The notes under the pieces were generated by a model that did not search any database, was not told the DNA's origin, and saw only the letters and a program-made list of their open reading frames with translations. Positions 6,478 to 23,113 of a stretch of 23,113 bases of DNA are shown piece by piece. Made by a program: the position numbers and the translations under genes. The stretch is from a virus. Where the stretch lies: the IMG/VR virus record IMGVR_UViG_3300006735_000277, positions 1-23,113 of that record, one strand, 5' to 3'. Within the stretch, counting starts at the first letter, position 1, and each line of letters begins with the position of its first letter.

Positions 6478-6942
6478 CTATGCGTAAATCAAACCTCGTC
6501 TATAACCATTAACCCTATCATATGTAAGGGATTCTTTTCTGTTTGCCTCATCATTATATGATACATGCACCCAACCAGAACTAGGACCTTTTGCTCTTTC
6601 ATAACATTCTAATATTAACTGATCGTAGTCCATTGAATCTGCTATATGTTGAGCTAGTTCTGCATTACTTACACCGGGTATTTCTATATCTGCCGCCTGC
6701 CCTTTGCAATGTTGACTAGTGCTTTTTGATCCTATGGCTCGACATAATGCTGCGCTGCGATACCCAGAGTTAATCATGATTGGTTTACCAAAATGTTCAC
6801 GAAGAGGCTCAAGAACATTAGTACACAATGACATCATTGCAACTACATGTTTATCGTTTGGCATGTTTTCTATGCCTTTTCTTTCTGCCGTTTGTGATTT
6901 AATAAATTCTGTTATTGTAAAATGTGGGGATAATCTACTCAT
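6478..6942 (-). CDS. Peptidase M15-type endolysin (peptidoglycan peptidase)
   Basis: A 154-residue zinc peptidase of the M15_3/VanY-like fold that cuts peptidoglycan peptides. It is probably the endolysin, or possibly a virion-associated wall enzyme. The N-terminal SPHFTITEF is typical of the family. The catalytic core shows INSGYRSAALCRAIG (57-71), then STSQHCKGQAAD with zinc ligands H78 and D85, and SGWVHVSY with the third ligand H126. The length is normal for a stand-alone catalytic domain. There is no signal peptide, so access to the wall would need a holin or virion delivery; no obvious holin is seen nearby. It has a good AGGAG Shine-Dalgarno sequence. The start overlaps the stop of the large internal protein (ATGA-type overlap). 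Confidence 0.85.
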   Translation of the reverse strand: MSRLSPHFTITEFIKSQTAERKGIENMPNDKHVVAMMSLCTNVLEPLREHFGKPIMINSGYRSAALCRAIGSKSTSQHCKGQAADIEIPGVSNAELAQHIADSMDYDQLILECYERAKGPSSGWVHVSYNDEANRKESLTYDRVNGYRRGLIYA

Positions 6943-9900
6943 CCAGTTCTCCTAGCTATATCTAAGTTTTTTAGAATGTCCTCTGGACTACTGCCTAGAA
7001 AAGAAGGATTAGTTCTTGTTGTCGGATCTGTTGCCACATTAGTCATCTGTTGAAAATTTGGAGCTGATGACACATTAACATTTGATGCAGGCGACTGAGT
7101 AATATTTGATGCAGGCGACTGAGTATTATTAACAGGTGGTTTAGGAACTTGAGTTGCAACTGCTCTTTGATTTCCCAATCCAAACAAGTTAGGCATACTT
7201 AACATATCCGAGTCTGGCTCTTTCCGTAAAGACATTCCTCTTCGTAATGATCTTAAAGCATTTATATCTCCAGTGGGGACATATATATTTTTCTTTCTTG
7301 CATCTTTAACTTTTTCTTTACTTGGCTTGAATGGAACATATCTATCGTTCAAGACAGAACTTGTTTCTTCTTCTCCTAACTGTGCGTCTTTCATTATCTT
7401 TCTTAGTTGTGGTCTTGATAAACCAAGTGTTTTCAAATCATCTATAGCTGACGCATACTTTCTAAAAATTTTCAATCTAGCATCATCTGCTCTTCTAAAA
7501 GCAGTAATAATTTGTTCTGGAGATGCTTCTTGAAGTCTTAATACTTCATTAAACAATGCAGCCGTTCCAGATCTATCTTGTTTAAACTCTTGTGCTCTAA
7601 ACTCCCCTAATCTTTTCAAGTCTAGTGTTTGTGTGTTTAGACCAGTAAAAGCTCTAAATAGTTCTGCTCCTTGTCGATAAGTCTTACCAGTTGTAGGCTC
7701 CATCTCACCTTCTGGAGAGAACACACCTCGTAAAAATCTGGATTTTTCTATAGATTTTACACCTTCTGGAAAGTTACCACCTGCAATACCAAGCTCTGCT
7801 CCCACTGGTATTCTGACGGGGACCATGCCTGGGATCAAAGTATTAAACATATGTAACAATGATTTTTCAAAAGCAACTCCAGAACTATCTTGTTCTCTGT
7901 AAACCTTCGCACCAGATCTTGTTCGACCTCCACGACCTCCACCTGCTGTAGGTGCTACATCTTGTAGTGCAGAAAAAACCATGGAGTAATCTATAAACGG
8001 AGTGAAGTATTCAGACAATGTTTCAAATCCTATCTTTCTAACTTGTTCTCCCATAGACATGCTTTGTCTGTCTGTTTCTCTATATGTGTTTAAAGCAGTT
8101 CTAAAACCTCTTGATAATAAATCGTATGGGTTTGTATGACTAAAATCAATGTATTCAAAATTACCATTGTCGTCTCTGCCAACTGGTATTAATTGTGAGT
8201 TTCTTTGCCAACTAGCCGCCAATCTATTAGCCGCCTCTAATTCTTCATCGCTAGTGTCAGTCAAAGTCTGTGCAAATCTTTGTAGTCCATCGCCTACAAC
8301 ACCAAAGGCAGTAATACCACCCATTAATCTTTTCATACCTATTTCTCTAATAGCTTGAACTGGACTATCTAATTCTTTTGCAGCAGTATCAAGAGTATTA
8401 AAACCAGTTCTTAGAATCTCTGCTGGAAAAGCTATAAAGTTTCCAAGAGGCACACCTCTTAATCCTTTAATAAACTCTGGTACAAGTTCATAGTTTGGAA
8501 CTGTATTACGAACTGTATCTGCGGCTGCTCTCTTTAGTGCTTCATCTAATCCTTCACCCTTTTGTTTACCTATGTGCCTAGAAAACGCAGTGAGCTGTTG
8601 TCTTCTAACAGTGGGATTGTTAGCGAAATCTGTTCCTATCTTTGCTATTGAGTTTCTTAGTTTTTGTAATTCAAAAGCGTAGTTGTATATCTTCCAAATA
8701 TCATCACCACCTTTATACAAACCTTCTGCTGTATCTAAGAATCGTCTTGTCATGTTCATACTGCCTTTCAAAGCAGTCTTTGACATACCTTTTAATCCTT
8801 TACCATCTGAAGGAGTTTCTATTATAGATTGTTGTCTAGCTATTGAATCTTCAACTGCTTGTGGTCTAGCACCCAAAGCAACTTCAAAATCAGAAACTCT
8901 TACATCGTCTACTGATCCAACTGTTCTTTGTGCTGTTTCACCTGTGATCCCTGTTCCTCTATACCCTAACCCTTGGCGTAAGTTAGCTTGTATCTCTCGT
9001 AGTTGAGCCGAACTACCGATAACACCTCTGTTCTGTAAGTCTACAAGAAAATCTAAAACTTCATCGTTCAAAGAAAAATCAAATCTATCATTGGTAAATT
9101 TTTCAATTTTACCAGTGCCTTTTAGCTTTAATTCTTTATCAATTAAATCTCTCAAAACTAAATCTACTGATTCAAAAAGACTAGCGTTCTTACCTACATT
9201 ACCTTGTGCTAGTGCAAACAAAGAAGCAGATGTTACGTTTCTAACTTGTGTAATTGGAGATAGAATAGTTTTAGCGTATTGAGATAAACCTTTTAATTTA
9301 ACCATAGGATAATACAAGGCTCTTGCTATATCTCCCATGACACTTGTTCTTTCGTTAATAACATTACTCATGGCTTCATACATAGGTTTTGGTATGGCGT
9401 ATCCATACATTTCACCGAAAACGCTTCGTGCTGCAATACCTTCTGGATCAAAACTTTTTAATCGATCTCTACCAAGAACCACATAGTCTAGTCCTCGACC
9501 GCCTCGTCTTTGAACACTATTCATAACATCTTCAATAATTTCATCTCTGTTTTGTTGGGGTAATTCACGAAGAGATGTTATTGGTTCAAATCCCATGTTA
9601 CTTCTTGCTTGGTTAATCTGTACAATTTTTTCTCTGATTAAATCGTTTGTGTCTATAAACAAAGGTTTATCTGCACGAGGATCCGTTTGTCTGATTATAT
9701 TGTCTGCGGTTTTTTTAAAACTAGAATAAAACGCATCTGCTGCTATAAAATTAGATAGCTCCCCTACAGTGTGCATGTATGCTTCTTTTGGGTTTCTAAC
9801 TTCACCAAGTATGGCTCTAATAATTTCATTATCTATCTTTGATTTATTTAAAACTGCTGGATTGAGTCTGACAACTGGTACAGTTCTAGCGGCAGACCCG

Positions 9901-11738
9901 TATGATCCACCAGAGCTATGCTTCAAAGCCTTATATTCTTTTGTAACAGCGTCTATGTATCGTTCTGCTTGAAGTCTTGTTAATCTACCAACTTGACCAA
10001 CAGCTCCCTCTGGACCTTCTCGTTGTGCCGCACTAAATACGTTTACAAAATCATCTGTAATTCTAAATGTTTCAGGCTCACCTGCTAAAAATTTTTGAAC
10101 ATGTTTTATATCCACACCTTTACCCTCTACGATTTGATCTATAAGAGCTTCTCTCATATCGGGTGCTAGTTTAAAATTGTCGTCATTGAATATTTGATAT
10201 TGTCTAGAAAGATAACCACCATTTGCTATGTTATCTCTTACTTGCTTTTTGAAAGCCGCTCTAGACATCAACCCACTAGTTGATACTTCTGGTAAACTTT
10301 TAGCTGCACCAGTGTCTATAACTTTATTAGATAAGTCATCAATAATATTTTTTGCTTTTAAGAAGCGATCAAATAAAATTTTTGGGATTTCTAAATCTTT
10401 TTCTTTTGCTCCTTCAAGAACATCCATAAAATTATTTATCAGTTTTTGTTTTGTAAAATCTGGAAGTTTTCTGTACGCTTCAAATTCTTTGTTACCTGGT
10501 CTTAATACATTTGAAATTTCTTTATCAACTTCTTTTAACGCCTTTTCTGCTTTCTTAATATCTCCTTCTATGGCTGGGTTGACCAAAGATTTTACTCTCG
10601 CTACGGCAGCTGGTAAAAATGATCTGTATCTAAAAGCAGACAACGCTTTAGCAACGGCTCTATCCAAAGTATTGATGACACCTGGATCAGAAGACTCGCC
10701 TTTTAAAAATCTTTCTTCTTGTTTTGCAATAGCTTCTGATGCTTTTTTAGAAGCTGCTCCTAATACTCTTGACCCTACTCCAGCACCCGCACCAATACCT
10801 GCTCCATATGCCGCACCAGTTGCCACCTTTCCAAAATCTATATCTTTAAGATCTTTTCCTTGAGCCAACTCATCAACTGTGGCTGCACCCGCACCGATGG
10901 CTGCACCTGGAACTGCAAGACCAACTTCTCTTGATGTAGCCGCACCTATTTTTGCAGAAGTGCTAAGTCCTGCACCAATGACTGGAGGTAAAATACCAGC
11001 AAGAATTGACCCAGAAATACCATGAGCCATAACTTTATTATATACTCTAGCAGCTGCTCTTTCTCTGCCCTCTAATCCTAAAAGATCTTTTGTTTCAAAA
11101 AACGGACCGTAACCACCCTCAAAAAAATCACCTAAAGATTGTGTGCCGTCTGTGGCTACGACTGCATCTGCTGCACCCGCCGCTACCATTTGTTGTGTTG
11201 CCAATCCTAACTTTTGACTAGTTGTTAAGTCCTTCATGTCCAAAGGTTGTTTTGTGATCTTCATAGTTTTTAAAGACCCTGCATCGGGTTTCATGCCTCG
11301 TGTGCCTCGTGCCAACTTACCAAGTTTACTAAACTTTGATACGGCAGCCGCGGCTCCAAGACCTGGAATACCAAACTGAATAAGACCTTCTGTTATTTTA
11401 CCAGCGGTTCCAGCTGGATCAATACCAAGATCGTTTCTCATTTTATTAAAACCTTTAACCACTGAATCTGTGTAACTAGTTCCGGCAGCAAGATCGATAA
11501 GACTTGTAGCAGTTTCTACTATACCTTGAGGTATAGCAATTAAACCAGAGGCTGCACCCTCTGCTATTTCTTGCAAGGTTCCTTCATCTTGTGGATTTAA
11601 ATAATCACTAGGCTCGTCTTCTGCCGTAGCTTGATCGCCTGGAGAACCAAAACGAGTTTTTACAAGAGCTTCTGCTTCTGTTTGCGTAAGATCTTCTTTA
11701 ATAAAATAAGTTTTACCATCTACTATATAGCTAGGCAT
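6939..11738 (-). CDS. Very large internal virion (probable DNA-ejection) protein
   Basis: A 1599-residue protein, the largest in the window. By size, position and composition it is probably the internal core or ejection protein, analogous to T7 gp16; this is inference, since I see no lytic transglycosylase or other catalytic motif. The N-terminus (SYIVDGKTYFIKEDLT) resembles the start of other phage internal proteins. Gly/Ala-rich, membrane-seeking stretches lie near residues 80-145 and 235-330 (for example AAYGAGIGAGAGVGSRVLGA). A long predicted-helical middle follows, with a region near 825-860 (KTILSPITQVRNVTSASLFA) that I recall from similar phage proteins. The C-terminus is a low-complexity Asn/Ser/Pro-rich tail with a tandem TQSPASN repeat. 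The start directly follows the stop of the upstream virion gene. It overlaps the endolysin gene by four bases. Confidence 0.65.
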   Translation of the reverse strand: MPSYIVDGKTYFIKEDLTQTEAEALVKTRFGSPGDQATAEDEPSDYLNPQDEGTLQEIAEGAASGLIAIPQGIVETATSLIDLAAGTSYTDSVVKGFNKMRNDLGIDPAGTAGKITEGLIQFGIPGLGAAAAVSKFSKLGKLARGTRGMKPDAGSLKTMKITKQPLDMKDLTTSQKLGLATQQMVAAGAADAVVATDGTQSLGDFFEGGYGPFFETKDLLGLEGRERAAARVYNKVMAHGISGSILAGILPPVIGAGLSTSAKIGAATSREVGLAVPGAAIGAGAATVDELAQGKDLKDIDFGKVATGAAYGAGIGAGAGVGSRVLGAASKKASEAIAKQEERFLKGESSDPGVINTLDRAVAKALSAFRYRSFLPAAVARVKSLVNPAIEGDIKKAEKALKEVDKEISNVLRPGNKEFEAYRKLPDFTKQKLINNFMDVLEGAKEKDLEIPKILFDRFLKAKNIIDDLSNKVIDTGAAKSLPEVSTSGLMSRAAFKKQVRDNIANGGYLSRQYQIFNDDNFKLAPDMREALIDQIVEGKGVDIKHVQKFLAGEPETFRITDDFVNVFSAAQREGPEGAVGQVGRLTRLQAERYIDAVTKEYKALKHSSGGSYGSAARTVPVVRLNPAVLNKSKIDNEIIRAILGEVRNPKEAYMHTVGELSNFIAADAFYSSFKKTADNIIRQTDPRADKPLFIDTNDLIREKIVQINQARSNMGFEPITSLRELPQQNRDEIIEDVMNSVQRRGGRGLDYVVLGRDRLKSFDPEGIAARSVFGEMYGYAIPKPMYEAMSNVINERTSVMGDIARALYYPMVKLKGLSQYAKTILSPITQVRNVTSASLFALAQGNVGKNASLFESVDLVLRDLIDKELKLKGTGKIEKFTNDRFDFSLNDEVLDFLVDLQNRGVIGSSAQLREIQANLRQGLGYRGTGITGETAQRTVGSVDDVRVSDFEVALGARPQAVEDSIARQQSIIETPSDGKGLKGMSKTALKGSMNMTRRFLDTAEGLYKGGDDIWKIYNYAFELQKLRNSIAKIGTDFANNPTVRRQQLTAFSRHIGKQKGEGLDEALKRAAADTVRNTVPNYELVPEFIKGLRGVPLGNFIAFPAEILRTGFNTLDTAAKELDSPVQAIREIGMKRLMGGITAFGVVGDGLQRFAQTLTDTSDEELEAANRLAASWQRNSQLIPVGRDDNGNFEYIDFSHTNPYDLLSRGFRTALNTYRETDRQSMSMGEQVRKIGFETLSEYFTPFIDYSMVFSALQDVAPTAGGGRGGRTRSGAKVYREQDSSGVAFEKSLLHMFNTLIPGMVPVRIPVGAELGIAGGNFPEGVKSIEKSRFLRGVFSPEGEMEPTTGKTYRQGAELFRAFTGLNTQTLDLKRLGEFRAQEFKQDRSGTAALFNEVLRLQEASPEQIITAFRRADDARLKIFRKYASAIDDLKTLGLSRPQLRKIMKDAQLGEEETSSVLNDRYVPFKPSKEKVKDARKKNIYVPTGDINALRSLRRGMSLRKEPDSDMLSMPNLFGLGNQRAVATQVPKPPVNNTQSPASNITQSPASNVNVSSAPNFQQMTNVATDPTTRTNPSFLGSSPEDILKNLDIARRTG
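7081..7128 (-). repeat. In-frame tandem 24-bp repeat
   Basis: Two adjacent 24-base units share an identical first 21 bases (7081-7101 and 7105-7125). They encode a repeated TQSPASN in the low-complexity C-terminal tail of the 1599-residue virion protein. The unit length keeps the frame, as expected for a recent slippage duplication in a disordered linker. Confidence 0.85.
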
Positions 11739-15417: not shown

Positions 15418-15801
15418 TTATATTCCAGCACTTGTTGTGTTTCTGTTTTGTGCTAATTCTTGAATACTTGCCACTACATGCAATCTGTCCGCCGTTGCAG
15501 CAGTAGCTTTTAAAATCTCACCTGCTTGTAAAACTAATTCGTTGGTTAACAGCTCAACTGTAGTATTAGCGGCAACTGCTTTTACTTGAAATAAGCTAAA
15601 TACATCACTGCCGTTTGTAACAGTCAAAGTTATTGTATCAGAACTTCCAGAATCATTCGACACTAATATTGAACTTACTATAGAAGCATTGAAGTCTGCT
15701 CCACTAGGAGCAGTATATAAGGTAGTAATGTTAGTTGATGATAAATCTAACTTTGCATTTGTTAGATTCTGTATATATTGTGGTATTGCATTTACAAACA
15801 T
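15418..15801 (-). CDS. Small beta-rich virion protein
   Basis: A 127-residue protein with alternating beta-strand pattern and few charges. Key stretches are NITTLYTAPSGADFNASIVS (24-43), SNDSGSSDTITLTVTNGSD (48-66), VAANTTVELLTNELVLQAGE and ATAADRLHVVASIQELA-like sequence at the C-terminal side. I recall similar small proteins in phage tail or neck gene clusters, without an established role; a decoration, collar or tail-accessory protein is plausible. The start overlaps the stop of the large tail protein as TAATG with GGAAGAAG upstream, so the two are probably made together. Confidence 0.6.
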   Translation of the reverse strand: MFVNAIPQYIQNLTNAKLDLSSTNITTLYTAPSGADFNASIVSSILVSNDSGSSDTITLTVTNGSDVFSLFQVKAVAANTTVELLTNELVLQAGEILKATAATADRLHVVASIQELAQNRNTTSAGI

Positions 15802-15818
15802 TATCTTCTTCCATCTGG
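15799..15818 (-). promoter_or_regulatory. Coupled start: GGAAGAAG site and TAATG overlap
   Basis: On the - strand the junction reads CCAGATGGAAGAAGATAATG. The ribosome site lies within the last codons of the upstream gene, and the stop and start share one base. It matches 17 of 20 bases of the junction at 13560-13579 between two other genes. Confidence 0.6.
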
Positions 15819-17666
15819 TCTAAGATCAACTCTAGGCGTTCCCAGTTTCCAAGCAACTCCTTGGTCTGTGGACTCTAGTTTCATGTTAAAAGATCTACCT
15901 CTTAATCTTACGTTTATAAAATCCGTAAATTGTTCTACTGGAGATGTCGAAGTTCTTGTCGAAGTTCCTCCAGAATTAGTCCCATAAACACTACCAGGTC
16001 CTGTTCTTGCTTGTAAGGTAAAGGTTGCATTTGGATTACCACTAGTTGAAGTTGAGCCTTGGAAAGTTATATCTGGTATTATCTGATTTATAAAAGTAAA
16101 CTGATAGCCATCACCCATATCAATTTGACTTGATTCAACGGAGGATGTCATAGCAGATCCGTCATCATCATTCCCATTCTCATGTTCATATAAATAAGAA
16201 GAACCCGCTGCAATAGGATATTGCCTAATTCCTCTGTCATGCCATGCAGTTCTAGCCAATGATCCGTAGTACCATGTTTTTTCTAAGTAATTATAGATAA
16301 CATATTTGTCATTTTCTTCTGAACTAGCAGAGGCATAAAACCACCATATCTCACCCCATTTTGAATTTACGCCTGAAATGATTTTATCTGATTGTGCTAA
16401 ATTAAAATCAAGGAATACTTTGTCTCTAACCGTGCAAGGTATCTGCGCTGTCTGACCAGCGTACACATAAAAATTATCTTTACCCATCCAAAAGACAGCA
16501 TCCTCCACGGCAACTGCTGCTTTTGGACTTGCGATTGTAATGTTCTTTGATAGTTCTTGAAGACCAAAAGTAAATGGAGGCCCGATAAATTTCATTCCAA
16601 ATAAACTTCTATCGGTAAACACTAATACTTGTTGTTTTGTTTCTACTGCTTGAACAAAAGTAGACCCACTACTTAATCTTAGGTCTCCCGCAGTATTTGT
16701 TGCAGTTGGTGTAAAATCTGTTATAGATTCTTGTGATCCAAAACGAATAAGCAAAGGATCTTGTGTTGTTGTTCCTAGTGTGTTTGCTCCAAAAACAATG
16801 ACATGCCTATCAATATCTGACACTAAAACCTGTTTTGCTACTGTAGGAGCGTTTGAAGAACCTGCTAAAGTTGTTATGTTTACTGCTGCCGTACCAGTAC
16901 CGTTTGATTTATCCCAGTAAAAGATACCACTATCTCTAGGATTTATAAGCAAATCTTCACCAAAATTATCATGCGACCATGATCTTATTTGAGAAGTTGT
17001 TCCACTTGCAGCGGCTTGTCCCCAACCAAAAGTTGAAAGATCTGCGTTTACACCACCAAAACCACCAGCACCCCAACCATTACCGCCAACAGCAGTATTC
17101 AACCCTACGTTAAGTTGATAAACTCCGTCTACACCAGAACCACCGTTTCCACTGTCCGAGGCATTGGCTGTTACACTTACTGTTATTTTGTAAGAGTTAG
17201 CGTTTACTACAGAAGTAATTTGATGTTCTGCATTAAGAATACTTGCTGTTACAAGACCGCCTAAACTTACTGCACCAGATATTGTAACAAAATCATTTGC
17301 TACTGCACCGTGAGTGCTATCTGTAACTGTTATAACATTAGAATCTTCAGTTGCTGAAAAAGTAATAGAATTAGTAGAAGTTTTACGAGTAGGTGTTATG
17401 TCGTTAAAACTACCACTTTCTTCTATGTAATACTTTAAGTGTGTTCCAACGCCCATGTAATTAGAGCCATCTAGAGCTAACCAGTTATGTAATGCTCTTG
17501 CCGTTCCTTGATAAGTGTTGTCAGATTGTTTAACCCAACCCCCTATTTTCTCTGGAAAGCCTGCATAAAATCTAATTTTCTCACAATCAAAGAACCCACC
17601 TTCGTTTGAATATGAAGTTACTTCTCTATTTATTCCTGGTCTAAATTTTAAACTTGTAATAGGCAT
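15801..17666 (-). CDS. Large beta-rich tail protein (nozzle/adaptor candidate)
   Basis: A 621-residue protein, mostly predicted beta-strand, that I recall as widespread in uncultured marine phages. The N-terminus reads SLKFRPGINREVTSYSNEGG (5-24), then FDCEKIRFYAGFPEKIGGW. The middle has repeated blade-like units such as WLALDGSNYMGVGT, DLLINPRDSGIFYWD, DRHVIVFGANTLG, KQQVLVFTDRSLFGMKFIG, DAVFWMGKDNFYVYAG and WGEIWWFYAS, which look like a beta-propeller. This pattern and its place beside ejection and tail genes resemble P22 gp10 or the T7 gp12 nozzle; the assignment is inference from style, not clear homology. The N-terminal third carries a low-complexity insert (about 95-175). No strong Shine-Dalgarno sequence is seen, and the 38-base gap upstream separates it from the oxygenase gene. 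Confidence 0.55.
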   Translation of the reverse strand: MPITSLKFRPGINREVTSYSNEGGFFDCEKIRFYAGFPEKIGGWVKQSDNTYQGTARALHNWLALDGSNYMGVGTHLKYYIEESGSFNDITPTRKTSTNSITFSATEDSNVITVTDSTHGAVANDFVTISGAVSLGGLVTASILNAEHQITSVVNANSYKITVSVTANASDSGNGGSGVDGVYQLNVGLNTAVGGNGWGAGGFGGVNADLSTFGWGQAAASGTTSQIRSWSHDNFGEDLLINPRDSGIFYWDKSNGTGTAAVNITTLAGSSNAPTVAKQVLVSDIDRHVIVFGANTLGTTTQDPLLIRFGSQESITDFTPTATNTAGDLRLSSGSTFVQAVETKQQVLVFTDRSLFGMKFIGPPFTFGLQELSKNITIASPKAAVAVEDAVFWMGKDNFYVYAGQTAQIPCTVRDKVFLDFNLAQSDKIISGVNSKWGEIWWFYASASSEENDKYVIYNYLEKTWYYGSLARTAWHDRGIRQYPIAAGSSYLYEHENGNDDDGSAMTSSVESSQIDMGDGYQFTFINQIIPDITFQGSTSTSGNPNATFTLQARTGPGSVYGTNSGGTSTRTSTSPVEQFTDFINVRLRGRSFNMKLESTDQGVAWKLGTPRVDLRPDGRR

Positions 17667-17704
17667 AAGCTATAGTACTCTAAAACATAAAATTAAACAA
17701 TTTT

Positions 17705-18373
17705 TTATGCCTTCTGATTATTTTTAAATTGTAATGACATATTAGCTGAAAAAGACCTTCTTTCACCTTCTCCAAAAAATGGATATGCAGTGTGCATTAA
17801 CAATGATGGAAATACATAAATATCGCCTACTTCTGGTTTTCTTGAATAATTAGATGGTGAACAATATCCATTTGAACCAAAAATAAAATCAATATAACCT
17901 TCTGTTGCATATCGTTTTTTTGTATTTCTAAAATTGGTTTCTCCTATTGATGAGGGTACTTTGGTATAAACAACACATGAAAAGTCGGAATGGGTATGAA
18001 TATGAACAGGGTTATAATCTCCCTTATAACTACGAACAAACCAAGCACCAAATATATTAAGTCTTTCTATTTCCTTATTTTCTCCGCCTCTTTCTATAAA
18101 ATCATTGTTGTATAAAGCTGAACAAGCTCCATATAATACATTCCCTAATTCTCTTAATAGCTCATCTTCAATTTCACAATGTAATTCTTCTGCCACATGA
18201 CCAACCAAATCTTGTGATTTATCATGTTTTTTTCTTATTTCATCTCCTTGAGCAATAACATTATCGCAATACTTATTCATATTATCAATAATGTGCATAG
18301 GTAATTTAGCCACTGCTATTCTAGGCCCAAAAGGTTTTTCTAATTGTAATGGAATTTCGTCATGTTCACTCAT
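17705..18373 (-). CDS. 2OG-Fe(II) oxygenase-like protein (first of tandem pair)
   Basis: A 222-residue protein with the marks of a double-stranded beta-helix 2-oxoglutarate/Fe(II) dioxygenase. YNPVHIHTHSDFSCVVY (120-136) supplies metal-binding histidines (among H124, H126, H128). GDIYVFPSLLMH (183-194) supplies the distal His (H194). ERRSFSANM (204-212) supplies the arginine expected to hold 2-oxoglutarate. The substrate is unknown; such enzymes hydroxylate proteins, nucleic acids or small molecules. The N-terminal 100 residues are helical and contain KYCDNVIAQGDEIRKKH. It lies ten bases after the second oxygenase gene and before the tail nozzle candidate, so a virion-protein or host-surface substrate is possible. 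The DNA here is more A+T-rich than in neighbouring virion genes, suggesting an acquired cassette. It shares the active-site layout with the adjacent gene but little else, so it is not a recent duplicate. Confidence 0.75.
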   Translation of the reverse strand: MSEHDEIPLQLEKPFGPRIAVAKLPMHIIDNMNKYCDNVIAQGDEIRKKHDKSQDLVGHVAEELHCEIEDELLRELGNVLYGACSALYNNDFIERGGENKEIERLNIFGAWFVRSYKGDYNPVHIHTHSDFSCVVYTKVPSSIGETNFRNTKKRYATEGYIDFIFGSNGYCSPSNYSRKPEVGDIYVFPSLLMHTAYPFFGEGERRSFSANMSLQFKNNQKA

Positions 18374-18382
18374 TTTAAAAAC

Positions 18383-19003
18383 CTAAATATTTAAATAAGA
18401 AAGATTATTTTCTTTTGTTTTGGGTTCACCTTTAAAAAAACAATTAAAAGATAAACTAATTCTTTGTGTGTCAAAACTATTTTCTTCTACAAAGTGTGAA
18501 AGAACTGAGGGGAATAACACTATTCTTCCTTCTTTAATTGGCATATGACAATCTCTTGAATTAAATGAATTAGATTCATTCAATTCAAATTCAAAGTTTT
18601 GAAATGCCTCAACATCTTTACGAAATGTTATTGGTGTGTCACCTTTGATATAATATACACCACTAAAAAAAGAATTAGAGTGTTTGTGAAGATGGTGTGC
18701 TTCACCTTTTGCATTAAAATTACACCAAGACTGTGAAATATAAAATTGTACTTTTTCTGTTATTTTAAAAAATTTATAACCATAATTATTAATATGTTTT
18801 AATATATGGTTTTTCAAATCTAATAAATAATCTTGTTCTAATATGAAATGGTTGTTACTTGTTTTATTACCACCAAGATTTGTCAAAGGCTTATCAAAAG
18901 ATTCCTTAATCAATTTATCTTTAATTTTTTCATCTAATAAAAAGCCATCACTTACATAAACTGGCATAGGAAAAACACCATGTACCTCAAAATCATCTGC
19001 CAT
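18383..19003 (-). CDS. 2OG-Fe(II) oxygenase-like protein (TIGR02466/PF13759 type)
   Basis: A 206-residue putative 2-oxoglutarate/Fe(II) dioxygenase. The opening VFPMPVYVSD (10-19) is typical of the phage-associated TIGR02466 group. SWCNFNAKGEAHHLHKHSNS (92-111) followed by FFSGVYYIKG carries the metal-binding histidines (among H104, H106, H108). GRIVLFPSVLSHFVEEN (159-175) gives the distal His H170. QRISLSFN (180-187) gives the co-substrate Arg R181. Homologues are common in marine phage genomes near tail genes; their substrate is not established. The gene is strikingly A+T-rich (bases 18781-18840 hold 9 G+C in 60), unlike the virion genes around it. It precedes the second oxygenase gene by nine bases, so both are probably co-expressed. 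Confidence 0.85.
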   Translation of the reverse strand: MADDFEVHGVFPMPVYVSDGFLLDEKIKDKLIKESFDKPLTNLGGNKTSNNHFILEQDYLLDLKNHILKHINNYGYKFFKITEKVQFYISQSWCNFNAKGEAHHLHKHSNSFFSGVYYIKGDTPITFRKDVEAFQNFEFELNESNSFNSRDCHMPIKEGRIVLFPSVLSHFVEENSFDTQRISLSFNCFFKGEPKTKENNLSYLNI

Positions 19004-19028
19004 AATTATCAGCTATAAAGTTGATTTA

Positions 19029-19304
19029 TTATTCTTTCTCATAACTTGGAGGAATATAATCTCCAATAGTGCCGTAATCTCCAGCCTTTGCTCTTTCAAA
19101 AATTAATCTGCCATGTTCCTCAGGGTCAGTAGGTTTAGCAGTAAACCCTAAATACCCATCTTCTGTATCTACTCCTATACGCTCATAGTGGGTAAATTTA
19201 CAATCTAAGCATATTGATTGCTTATCTTTATCTCCCCATCTAGGATTTTTTGCACCTTCAAGTTTTGAATTTGGCACTGATTTAACTATTATATCTTCTG
19301 ACAT
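19029..19304 (-). CDS. Small CxxC protein of the tail-fibre cluster
   Basis: A 91-residue protein. It has PRWGDKDKQSICLDCKFTHY (21-40) with a C32-x-x-C35 pair, then GFTAKPTDPEEHGRLIFERA (53-72), and ends AGDYGTIGDYIPPS. The FTA-x-P-x-D-x-E-x-HG-x-x-IF pattern recurs in small proteins encoded after phage tail-fibre genes; I recall them as uncharacterised, and a fibre-assembly chaperone is a reasonable but unproven guess. A single CxxC is not enough to claim a zinc site. A good AGGAG Shine-Dalgarno sequence overlaps the stop codon of the fibre gene upstream. Its start is nine bases beyond that gene. Confidence 0.6.
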   Translation of the reverse strand: MSEDIIVKSVPNSKLEGAKNPRWGDKDKQSICLDCKFTHYERIGVDTEDGYLGFTAKPTDPEEHGRLIFERAKAGDYGTIGDYIPPSYEKE

Positions 19305-19313
19305 TTTTTACTC

Positions 19314-19790
19314 CTATGAAATTCTATGTGCAACTGATGCCTTAAAAGGACTACCAGTTTGACCAAATGCTCTCCAAGTGCCAGGAGAAGTGCTTCCAGC
19401 ATGGTTGTCTGAACCTGATGCTTTAACATTAGTGCCAACATCAGAACCCCAACCAAACTGACCATGATCGTCATATCTAACATTTGCAAAACAACCTACT
19501 GCTTGACTTGCATAAATAATACTACTTGGACTTGGCAAACTTGTTAAATTAGAACCATTTGTAGCACCTAAAGTACCACCTGATATTCTTGCACCATCCA
19601 TTGTACCACTTGTTATTTTAGAAGCCGCAAGATCTGCAATCCTCGCCGCCGCAACTGTGCCGCTTGATATTTCACTACCATTTAAAGAAGTCAAACTTGC
19701 ACCACTTATTGCAGGTAAATTTCCAGTTAATTTTGTTGCATCTAAAGTTTGAGTACCCGTTACTTGTACCCCACCTACATACATAGCCAT
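19314..19790 (-). CDS. Short tail-fibre-like protein
   Basis: A 158-residue protein. The first 90 residues are built of short repeats with a beta-helical or fibre look: ATKLTGNLPAISGASLTSLN (18-37), then SGTVAAARIADLAASKITSG, SGTMDGARISGG and NGSNLTSLPS. The remainder (93-158) is a small globular tip with FGWGSDVGTN and GTWRAFGQTG, a GTWR-type ending I recall in other phage fibre proteins. It may be a distal fibre or receptor-binding component. Its start overlaps the longer fibre gene's stop as TAATG, with GAGGAG about eight bases upstream. Another - strand reading frame over 19289-19489 is a shadow. Confidence 0.65.
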   Translation of the reverse strand: MAMYVGGVQVTGTQTLDATKLTGNLPAISGASLTSLNGSEISSGTVAAARIADLAASKITSGTMDGARISGGTLGATNGSNLTSLPSPSSIIYASQAVGCFANVRYDDHGQFGWGSDVGTNVKASGSDNHAGSTSPGTWRAFGQTGSPFKASVAHRIS

Positions 19791-20749
19791 TATAACATCT
19801 CCTCTAATTTAAATTTATATTTTTTGCCATTAAGTCTGTTTAATATAAACAGATCATCTTCGCCCTCTTGAATAGTCCAAGAACCTCTTGTTCCATCAAC
19901 TTCATTATCTCTTGTTTTGGTGTTATTTAAATTTATATCACCAGTATATATATCTCGCCATTGTTTAGATGCAGAACCTAAATCAACAGCATCATCACTA
20001 GAAGGTAATACAGAACCACCAAATACTGCTCCAGAATTAAATGTTGCTAATCCTGCCTCACTACCATCTAATGTAAGCATTGTAATATCAGAAGTATTAT
20101 CTGTGCCTTTAAATATAATATCAGTATCATTTGCAGCTGCATCAATAGTAATATTGCCAGAGGTTGTGGTTATATTAACAGCTGCATCACCAGCACTAAT
20201 ATCATCTGCGGCACTAGATACACTACCAAAAGATAATGTACCAGAGCCATCTGTTTTCATAAATTGTCCATTAGAGCCATCACTTGTGGGATAAGTTAAG
20301 CCACCTGCAAACAGAGAAGGTATATTTAAATCTGTGAAAGCATCAATAACTGCTGCTCCACTTCCTGCACCATCTAAATAAACAACTTTAGTATGTCCAT
20401 TTGGTATTGTAACATTTGCACCACTACCTTGTGATATAAGTATGTTTTGTGAACCACTAGTTGCATTTTCAATAATATGTACTCTTTTTAAAGTATTTGG
20501 ACCTATTGTAATGGTACAAGCACTATCTAATGTTCCAGTATATTTAATAAACATGGCTCTACCTGCATCAGAAGAACCATCTGCTATCGTTGTTGCATGA
20601 GTATCAGCGTTTGTTGTTATGGCTTCAGTGCCATAACCTAATGCCTCACCGATAAGTTCTAAATTTGTATTGGTAGATGCACCCCATGTGCCAGATTCAT
20701 CACCAGTTCCTATTTCTTTTAGTCTAAGATTATTTACATATGTTGCCAT
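19790..20749 (-). CDS. Tail-fibre-like protein
   Basis: A 319-residue probable fibre. The N-terminal LRLKEIGTGDESGTWGASTN (8-27) resembles virion-attachment starts of marine phage fibres. The middle is Gly/Ser/Asp/Thr-rich repeating beta structure (for example SGTLSFGSVSSAADDISAGD, then NITTTSGNITIDAAANDTDI). The C-terminal part has DAVDLGSASKQWRDIYTGDI, a phrase common in phage fibre proteins, followed by SWTIQEGEDDLFILNR and NGKKYKFKL. It begins with MAT and is coupled to the cupredoxin-domain gene through TAATG with a GAAAGGG Shine-Dalgarno sequence. The gene is followed by a second, shorter fibre gene. Host-recognition function is inferred from composition and context. Confidence 0.7.
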   Translation of the reverse strand: MATYVNNLRLKEIGTGDESGTWGASTNTNLELIGEALGYGTEAITTNADTHATTIADGSSDAGRAMFIKYTGTLDSACTITIGPNTLKRVHIIENATSGSQNILISQGSGANVTIPNGHTKVVYLDGAGSGAAVIDAFTDLNIPSLFAGGLTYPTSDGSNGQFMKTDGSGTLSFGSVSSAADDISAGDAAVNITTTSGNITIDAAANDTDIIFKGTDNTSDITMLTLDGSEAGLATFNSGAVFGGSVLPSSDDAVDLGSASKQWRDIYTGDINLNNTKTRDNEVDGTRGSWTIQEGEDDLFILNRLNGKKYKFKLEEML

Positions 20750-22437: not shown

Positions 22438-22725
22438 TTATAATCTCCTTATATATTCAGCCGTTTCTTTTTGACCACTTGATCTCAAAGCATGGATAAT
22501 AGTACCACGCTCTTCCTTTCTTGCCAAGAGAAGATAATGATACAAGACTTTTTTCAAATGTTCTCTAAACTGATTCGCTTGTTGCCGTATATGAGGAGGA
22601 GCTTGATCGGAGATACTGACTATTTTATCTACGGCTAAATCTGCTACTTGCTCGTTTGTAAGACCTCCTTGATTTGAGGTTTTTACATTTACACTTCCCA
22701 CTGTAGATGTACCTAATTCAAACAT
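22438..22725 (-). CDS. Small conserved phage protein, probable virion region
   Basis: A 95-residue protein with MFELGTSTVG at the N-terminus, LTNEQVADLAVDKIVSISDQ (22-41), APPHIRQQANQFREHLKKVL (42-61) and a helical C-terminal half ending IRRL. I recall close relatives in cyanophage and other marine phage genomes within the structural gene block; no function is assigned. The fold looks mainly helical and soluble. Its first eight bases overlap the end of the preceding gene, with GAGGAG about seven to eight bases upstream, so coupling is likely. The final AGG AGA codons double as the ribosome site for the next gene. Confidence 0.65.
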   Translation of the reverse strand: MFELGTSTVGSVNVKTSNQGGLTNEQVADLAVDKIVSISDQAPPHIRQQANQFREHLKKVLYHYLLLARKEERGTIIHALRSSGQKETAEYIRRL

Positions 22726-23113
22726 TTTTTTTCTCCTCGTAAGTTACTCCTGGAATGTCTTCTCTCCCAATAAGGTTAGGTTTATTATCTATAGGGTTAG
22801 GAGGTTCTAATTTTGACTTTCGTGTTATCAACATACTACCTTGTGTAACTGTTGAAACAACGGGATCTTCTAATCTATGATAACCATACAGTTTTTGATC
22901 GTCTGGAACATTAGTGTCAAGTAAAGAAGAGCTGTGTGCTATATTTATTTTAATACCTTTTGATGTTGCTATAGCTAACCAAAACTCGCAACAAGCTCTT
23001 CCAGCTTCAGCAAAAGCTACATCTTTATGTGTAAAATCAATACCATACAAATGCAATTCTGTTACTTCTTCAGCAACAGCATAGGCAAAAGAGTAAGCAA
23101 CTGTGTTATTTAA
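22718..23113 (-). CDS. MptE/DUF115-like protein, 5' end cut by window edge
   Basis: The reading frame stays open from the right edge of the window. The codons before position 23056 encode NNTVAYSFAYAVAEEVTE without a stop, and the first apparent start there is only a TTG, so the true N-terminus lies outside. The visible 132 residues read EVTELHLYGIDFTHKDVAFA, then EAGRACCEFWLAIATSKGIK and SSLLDT. This alternating strand/helix pattern resembles DUF115/MptE-like Rossmann proteins that I recall in phage structural regions, sometimes labelled morphogenetic. The C-terminal 50 residues are unassigned. Function in the phage is unknown. It overlaps the next gene by eight bases and is the most upstream visible gene of the late operon. 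Confidence 0.55.
   Translation of the reverse strand, partial: LNNTVAYSFAYAVAEEVTELHLYGIDFTHKDVAFAEAGRACCEFWLAIATSKGIKINIAHSSSLLDTNVPDDQKLYGYHRLEDPVVSTVTQGSMLITRKSKLEPPNPIDNKPNLIGREDIPGVTYEEKKNV

Follow-up and report, generated by a model that had tools for sequence, protein, structure and literature searches.

Introduction

Why would a phage encode two different 2OG-Fe(II) oxygenases side by side among its tail genes, and on what might they act? Few auxiliary genes recur in abundant marine phages as often as those for 2OG oxygenases, and none of the literature cited here establishes a substrate for these enzymes. Three studies report the genes as metabolic (PMC3037559, PMC9599517, PMC11561400). 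The metaviromic islands of marine phages are variable host-recognition modules that contain fibre genes and eight Fe(II)-dependent oxygenases, the latter merely counted in a table under host recognition (PMC3909814). Structure-based annotation has also seen similarity to EGLN3 in marine phage oxygenases (PMC12774648).

Here we analyse a stretch of 23,113 nucleotides (the window) that makes up positions 1 to 23,113 of the IMG/VR virus record IMGVR_UViG_3300006735_000277. An earlier note, made from the sequence alone, described a tandem pair of oxygenase genes in an A+T-rich insert between tail genes. A megablast search of the whole window against phage records gave no match. Its DNA polymerase is 49-53% identical to that of the HTVC023P-type group, and its nozzle protein is 31-34% identical to those of HTVC023P and HTVC027P. 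By these identities, the phage is related to HTVC023P-type pelagiphages, and a SAR11 host is plausible.

Results

Two intact, diverged genes of one oxygenase family

The pair consists of the following genes.

18383..19003, minus strand: P0002, a 206-aa PF13759 (class III) oxygenase with the conserved site H106, H108, H170 and R181
17705..18373, minus strand: P0001, a 222-aa PF13759 (class II) oxygenase with the conserved site H124, H126, H194 and R205

P0002 is transcribed first, and the two intact ORFs are directly adjacent. Their products share 30% identity across ~105 aa, in agreement with the diverged neighbours that the earlier note had described. P0001 and P0002 score 63.9 and 70.8 bits against PF13759 (2OG-FeII_Oxy_5; curated cut-off 27 bits), covering nearly the whole profile, and match PHROG_81 over most of each protein's length. 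Against TIGR02466, the other family that the note had named, their scores of 29.3 and 60.9 bits fall under the curated cut-off of 62.5 bits, P0002 narrowly, and we do not class them as members. Likeness to the PF13759, TIGR02466 and PHROG_81 group consists of the profile match over most of the length and the fold of the crystal structures 3bvc and 2rg4; among these families we found no member with an established substrate.

AlphaFold2 models were confident for P0001 (pLDDT 86.9, pTM 0.86) and P0002 (pLDDT 83.0, pTM 0.81). The top Foldseek matches of the two models in the PDB are 3bvc and 2rg4 (TM 0.62-0.74), PF13759 structures of uncharacterised marine Rhodobacteraceae proteins. Next come P. 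putida prolyl-4-hydroxylase and PHD2 for P0001, and assorted 2OG enzymes including OGFOD1 for P0002. Each model has nearly 300 PDB matches at E <= 0.001, the best of which are 2OG-oxygenase structures. Profile searches reach 3bvc at E 2.4e-29 with the P0002 alignment and E 2.3e-11 with the P0001 alignment, and named matches of the pair in a viral structure library are chiefly cyanophage oxygenases. The predicted structures thus contain the double-stranded beta-helix fold of the 2OG-Fe(II) oxygenase superfamily. The pair are real, diverged proteins of this fold, and their specificities likely differ.

A variant form of the putative metal site

When P0001 is aligned with 32 relatives, W111, H124, H126, F188, P189, H194 and N211 are invariant and R205 is conserved in at least 90%. 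The alignment of P0002 with 29 relatives has invariant W93, H106, H108 and H170 and at least 90% conservation of S114, F164, R181 and N187. The distal FPSxLxH and downstream Arg noted earlier are present in both proteins; R205 and R181 correspond to the superfamily's 2OG-binding Arg after the distal His. The HxHxHS string that had been read as a common metal motif does not withstand alignment, as it is out of register between the two. Counted from the conserved Ser (S132 in P0001, S114 in P0002), the conserved HxH covers the first and second His of HxHxHS in P0001 but the second and third in P0002, so the apparent common motif is a coincidence of register. H128 of P0001 and H104 of P0002 lie outside the conserved set.

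With hhalign, H106/H108 of P0002 align with the HxD of PF13640-type relatives. A simple motif count finds HxH in 62/62 class III and 52/60 class II sequences, and HxD in 68/71 class I sequences. Judged from these alignments, the site is HxH...H plus Arg rather than the canonical HxD/E...H, with His in place of the carboxylate across the family. Because this His is invariant family-wide, the three-histidine site of the PF13759 pair reads as a variant site, not a broken one, and we class the two by their fold as members of PF13759 that have a variant site, and do not count them among canonical-triad enzymes. Structure prediction upheld the oxygenase fold, with its matches to 3bvc and 2rg4. One outcome that the earlier note had named as a refutation, an incomplete facial triad, applies by half: in the alignments the carboxylate is missing, but an invariant His stands in for it. 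Broken enzymes are disfavoured by the conserved residues together with purifying selection on P0001 (dN/dS 0.20).

Protein prolyl hydroxylases (P. putida P4H, PHD2/EGLN, OGFOD1) have a similar double-stranded beta-helix by Foldseek, at an identity of about 12-15% to the window pair that is uninformative on substrate. These enzymes use HxD...H, whereas the window pair has HxH...H. P0001 and P0002 look like ordinary members of a known family; it is their setting that is unusual and informative.

Base composition and origin of the pair

The oxygenase block is poorer in G+C than its neighbours, as first noticed from a count of 9/60 at 18781-18840: G+C is 0.26-0.32 within the block versus 0.36-0.40 alongside. 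The reading of this A+T richness as an insert fails, however. GC3 of P0001 and P0002 is 0.15, like that of neighbouring genes (0.125-0.21), and FYMINK residues make up 34-41% of the oxygenase pair versus 25% of the nozzle protein. The low G+C is therefore due to amino-acid make-up, and A+T richness gives no grounds for deducing a recent insertion. Enzyme genes are poorer in G+C than the nozzle gene in 44/44 enzyme-bearing loci (mean 0.308 vs 0.367). That the slot described below is an exchange site follows from comparative gene order, not from base composition.

Tandem duplication is rejected, since P0001 and P0002 fall into different supported clades in a tree of 46 oxygenases. Their closest outside kin in the tree are in loci L088 and L092 for P0001 and in L040 for P0002. 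By this phylogeny, the two are different old subfamilies that diverged anciently. The exact pair occurs elsewhere only in L006 and 3300002482_000250, at 91-97% identity and with the look of the same species.

The pair lies in a slot between fibre and nozzle genes

The surroundings of the pair are as follows.

19790..20749, minus strand: F19790, a 319-aa fibre protein whose N-terminal part is conserved; it borders the variable slot on the upstream side
19314..19790, minus strand: F19314, a 158-aa variable fibre protein of type D (weak PHROG tail matches, homologues)
19029..19304, minus strand: S19029, a 91-aa small tail-fibre-related protein of the type D fibre module (PHROG_1795, E 1e-11)
15801..17666, minus strand: nozzle/stabilisation candidate of 621 aa; downstream border of the slot (PHROG_3287, E 2e-60)
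17667..19789, minus strand: slot with exchangeable content, bounded by F19790 and the nozzle gene and holding the variable fibre module and the enzymes, as defined by gene-order comparison

The position between fibre genes and a nozzle candidate, already given in the earlier note, is confirmed by PHROG matches: genes upstream of the pair match tail-fibre families, and PHROG_3287 is a virion structural family. Cultured homologues of the nozzle candidate are annotated as stabilization protein. S19029 lies 25 bp upstream of P0002, and the gaps around the pair (25, 9 and 38 bp) are operon-like. No internal terminator-like site was found on this strand of the block, and promoter-like matches were no more frequent than chance, so the case for a late operon is made entirely from orientation and spacing. 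Head to tail with tail genes, the oxygenase pair is probably made late.

Elsewhere in the virion gene block, window positions 6939-11738 encode a 1599-aa protein whose middle part matches large structural pelagiphage proteins; one distant match carries the annotation ADP-ribosyltransferase.

Fibre types and enzyme sets in related loci

We fetched 80 loci by their homologue of the nozzle gene and compared 44 related loci with enzymes. In loci close to the window, the stretch from F19790 to the nozzle gene is hypervariable and holds a fibre module followed by up to nine enzymes. PF13759/PF13640-like oxygenase ORFs number 81 in 163 kb of slot versus 5 in 466 kb of flanks, a ratio that is descriptive, as there are near-copies among the loci and the flanks are mostly virion genes. 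Four of the five flank oxygenases share a second site, a short way upstream within the tail region. This second insertion site corresponds to the junction of window 22438-22725 and 22718-23056 and is occupied in L010, L014, L040 and L049; the copy in L040 is the closest outside relative of P0002.

The enzymes present differ with the type of fibre. Type A fibres (Gly-rich U2 plus U3) are accompanied by U1, OX.2 and U0.1 in the same order in 16/16 loci, with extras that vary. Type B fibres (Gly-rich U5 plus U4) occur with OX.3 in 13/14 loci, and type C fibres with U0.8 in 4/4. Fibre types are intermixed on the nozzle tree, where type A changes at least five times, three of them on well supported branches. 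OX.2 accompanies type A in 3/3 independent supported pairs, and OX.3 and type B agree in about 3.3 of 4 pairs; these 3-5 independent switches are too few for significance in a sign test.

Type D, the fibre type of the window, shows a loose match; the nozzle tree places it inside a mainly type A part. One type D locus, L158, has the fibre and an empty site without any oxygenase, and four others (L019, L159, L162, L163) carry other oxygenases than the window's. In most loci found with F19314, a homologue of S19029 comes after that of F19314, and in some of them, such as L019, L162 and L163, oxygenases lie between the two.

The fibres and cassettes have further features. The U2 and U5 fibres of types A and B (e.g. 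L010:5385-6626, L035:2505-3497) contain 24-33% glycine and may form glycine-rich helical bundles; the amino-acid make-up of the fibres revealed no clear hydroxylation target. A QueC-like PP-loop protein (L013:8563-9279; PF06508 just over cut-off) is part of the oxygenase cassette in several type A loci, and a PLP-dependent enzyme of Cys/Met metabolism (L025:5479-6735; PF01053, E 6e-97) ends one oxygenase cassette.

Distant phages, cultured pelagiphages and other locations

A distant group of about 50 loci has the order fibres, a 222-aa gene, class II, class I (PF13640), class III, a U1-like gene and nozzle. Class II (P0001-like) and class III (P0002-like) genes thus co-occur again in the same slot. 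The co-occurrence that the earlier note had proposed to survey recurs at the level of these classes, while the exact pair is confined to the two same-species-like contigs. The gene of ~222 aa (L105:8323-9024 and homologues), with a weak match to PHROG_1409, is conserved; most loci that extend far enough have it ahead of the oxygenase triple.

Cultured pelagiphages have a comparable arrangement; two of them, HTVC023P and HTVC027P, were grown on Candidatus Pelagibacter HTCC1062. HTVC023P carries a tandem oxygenase pair and another oxygenase directly before its nozzle homologue, HTVC027P has one oxygenase beside the nozzle homologue, and in 023Pt_psg01 oxygenases occupy the same fibre-nozzle slot. 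The window resembles HTVC023P-type phages in DNA polymerase identity and in having oxygenases next to the nozzle homologue. In the accessible part of PMC9599517, the HTVC023P-type genes are treated as metabolic, near each other but non-adjacent, and with ferrochelatase partners; the window genes, unlike these, are directly adjacent and have no ferrochelatase-labelled partner in the slot. The same part of that paper makes no mention of fibre-type matching.

P0001-like genes also occur outside tail regions. The closest outside relatives of P0001 (L087-L092, 46-50% identity) belong to another phage group, in which P0001-like genes (L087:10001-10666, L092:4798-5433) follow DNA polymerase A with one small gene between. 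In the cultured phage HTVC106P, the P0001 relative gp11 is in the leftmost gene block. Since its closest kin in L087 and L092 lie by DNA polymerase A and the HTVC106P copy lies in the leftmost block, the P0001 subfamily is, on gene order, not tied to tails. The tail link proposed in the earlier note thus holds for the fibre-nozzle slot, across the 44 related loci, the ~50 distant loci and the cultured pelagiphages, but does not extend to the closest outside kin of P0001.

Possibly mislabelled partner families

Some genes that share these cassettes carry labels for other functions. The U1 group (copies at L007:1180-1728, L105:11549-12205 and L152:5295-5915) corresponds to PHROG_2954 'ferrochelatase', of which HTVC023P gp67, the last of these copies, is a member. 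Aligned PHROG_2954 members keep H90, D92 and H138 without exception, which gives an HxD...H arrangement. Searches of Pfam and NCBIfam matched none of them to a ferrochelatase model, hints of AlkB type are weak, and the public record of 023Pt_psg01 labels its PHROG_2954 copy as either function. These proteins may be 2OG oxygenases under a wrong label. Given the HxD...H arrangement and the lack of a ferrochelatase profile match, the reported ferrochelatase-oxygenase pairing may be an oxygenase-oxygenase pairing.

The U0 group (L011:3522-4124) corresponds to PHROG_274 'DNA endonuclease V', with invariant H103, D105, H148 and R159. Of its members, 10/22 match PF13640 at E <= 0.1 (best 3.8e-6), and PHROG_274 is likely an oxygenase family. 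Profile-profile comparison detected no link of U1 or U7 to PF13759.

Discussion

What do the two oxygenases act on? Given the family, fold, conserved site, slot and match of fibre type to enzyme set demonstrated above, the best single reading, which we adopt tentatively, is that they act late and hydroxylate a protein of the phage itself, either its receptor-binding fibre or a tail protein close by. P0001 and P0002 would be the enzymes of a fibre-plus-oxygenase cassette that can be exchanged, expressed late together with the tail genes. They would use 2OG, and each would hydroxylate a site of its own, which would be why different fibres come with different enzyme sets. Stepwise action of the two on one substrate, a possibility raised in the earlier note, gains no support from these results. 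Enrichment in the slot, the fibre-enzyme match, the gene order of the distant group and the protein-hydroxylase-like folds favour this reading. It is weakened by the P0001 kin beside DNA polymerase A and by type D fibres with no oxygenases or with other ones.

Could the target instead be the receptor? Late in infection, the enzymes may modify a receptor at the host surface, be it a glycan, a lipid or a surface protein, and so spare progeny from loss to debris or close the cell to competitors. Enzyme set and fibre would then go together since both track the receptor, which predicts the same fibre-type match, allows one fibre type to go with different enzymes and fits the tabulation of oxygenases under host recognition in metaviromic islands (PMC3909814). 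However, 2OG enzymes depend on Fe(II) and 2OG in the cytoplasm, and the target would therefore have to be a precursor, and the folds closest to P0001 include protein hydroxylases, which is weak evidence. We consider receptor modification somewhat unlikely.

In the literature on cyanophages and pelagiphages, such genes are read as auxiliary metabolic genes (PMC3037559, PMC9599517, PMC11561400). The enzymes would target small molecules of the host, or else 2OG/iron status, and the fibre-nozzle slot would be merely a permissive insertion site. The presence of P0001-like genes in a replication module and the L158 fibre without enzymes are consistent with this. A metabolic role does not predict that the same three enzymes stay with one fibre type over several switches, nor the conserved order in the distant group, and we regard it as unlikely.

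Under hitch-hiking, neighbours would recombine as one block while the enzyme functions are unrelated to the fibre. Adjacency and linked exchange suffice for an association, and independent switches are few; the extras of type A nevertheless vary freely around a constant core, the enrichment concerns one enzyme superfamily and the pattern recurs in distant phages, all of which make this explanation quite unlikely. A nucleic acid or a replication protein as the target of at least P0001, with base oxidation or AlkB-like repair or modification as its activity, would suit its closest outside kin just after DNA polymerase A and the HTVC106P copy in the leftmost block, but is very unlikely given that the window's P0001 lies among tail genes and that Foldseek ranks PF13759 and P4H-type folds above AlkB.

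Fibre or tail hydroxylation, our favoured reading, also has a broader form, which we put forward as possible but doubtful. Fibre-matched sets of several 2OG oxygenases in marine podoviruses would put a specific hydroxylation pattern on the receptor-binding fibre, and a fibre swap would be an enzyme swap. That marine phages have oxygenases in variable islands was known already; what we add to PMC3909814 is the specific oxygenase set for each fibre type and the conserved order in distant phages. Fibre-matched sets appear to be unreported in the literature searched, chiefly freely accessible papers, which likewise gave nothing on point for fibre hydroxylation in phages.

Altogether, the close match between fibre type and oxygenase set offers a concrete candidate substrate, the fibre protein or its receptor, and suggests that these oxygenases may give the fibre or its receptor a chemical finish and not take part in general metabolism. 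Should virion proteins prove to be hydroxylated, models of how viruses influence host metabolism would have to count these genes differently, and host recognition by phages would gain a chemical layer. If fibre-matched hydroxylation is true, it would be a chemical extension of host-range diversification.
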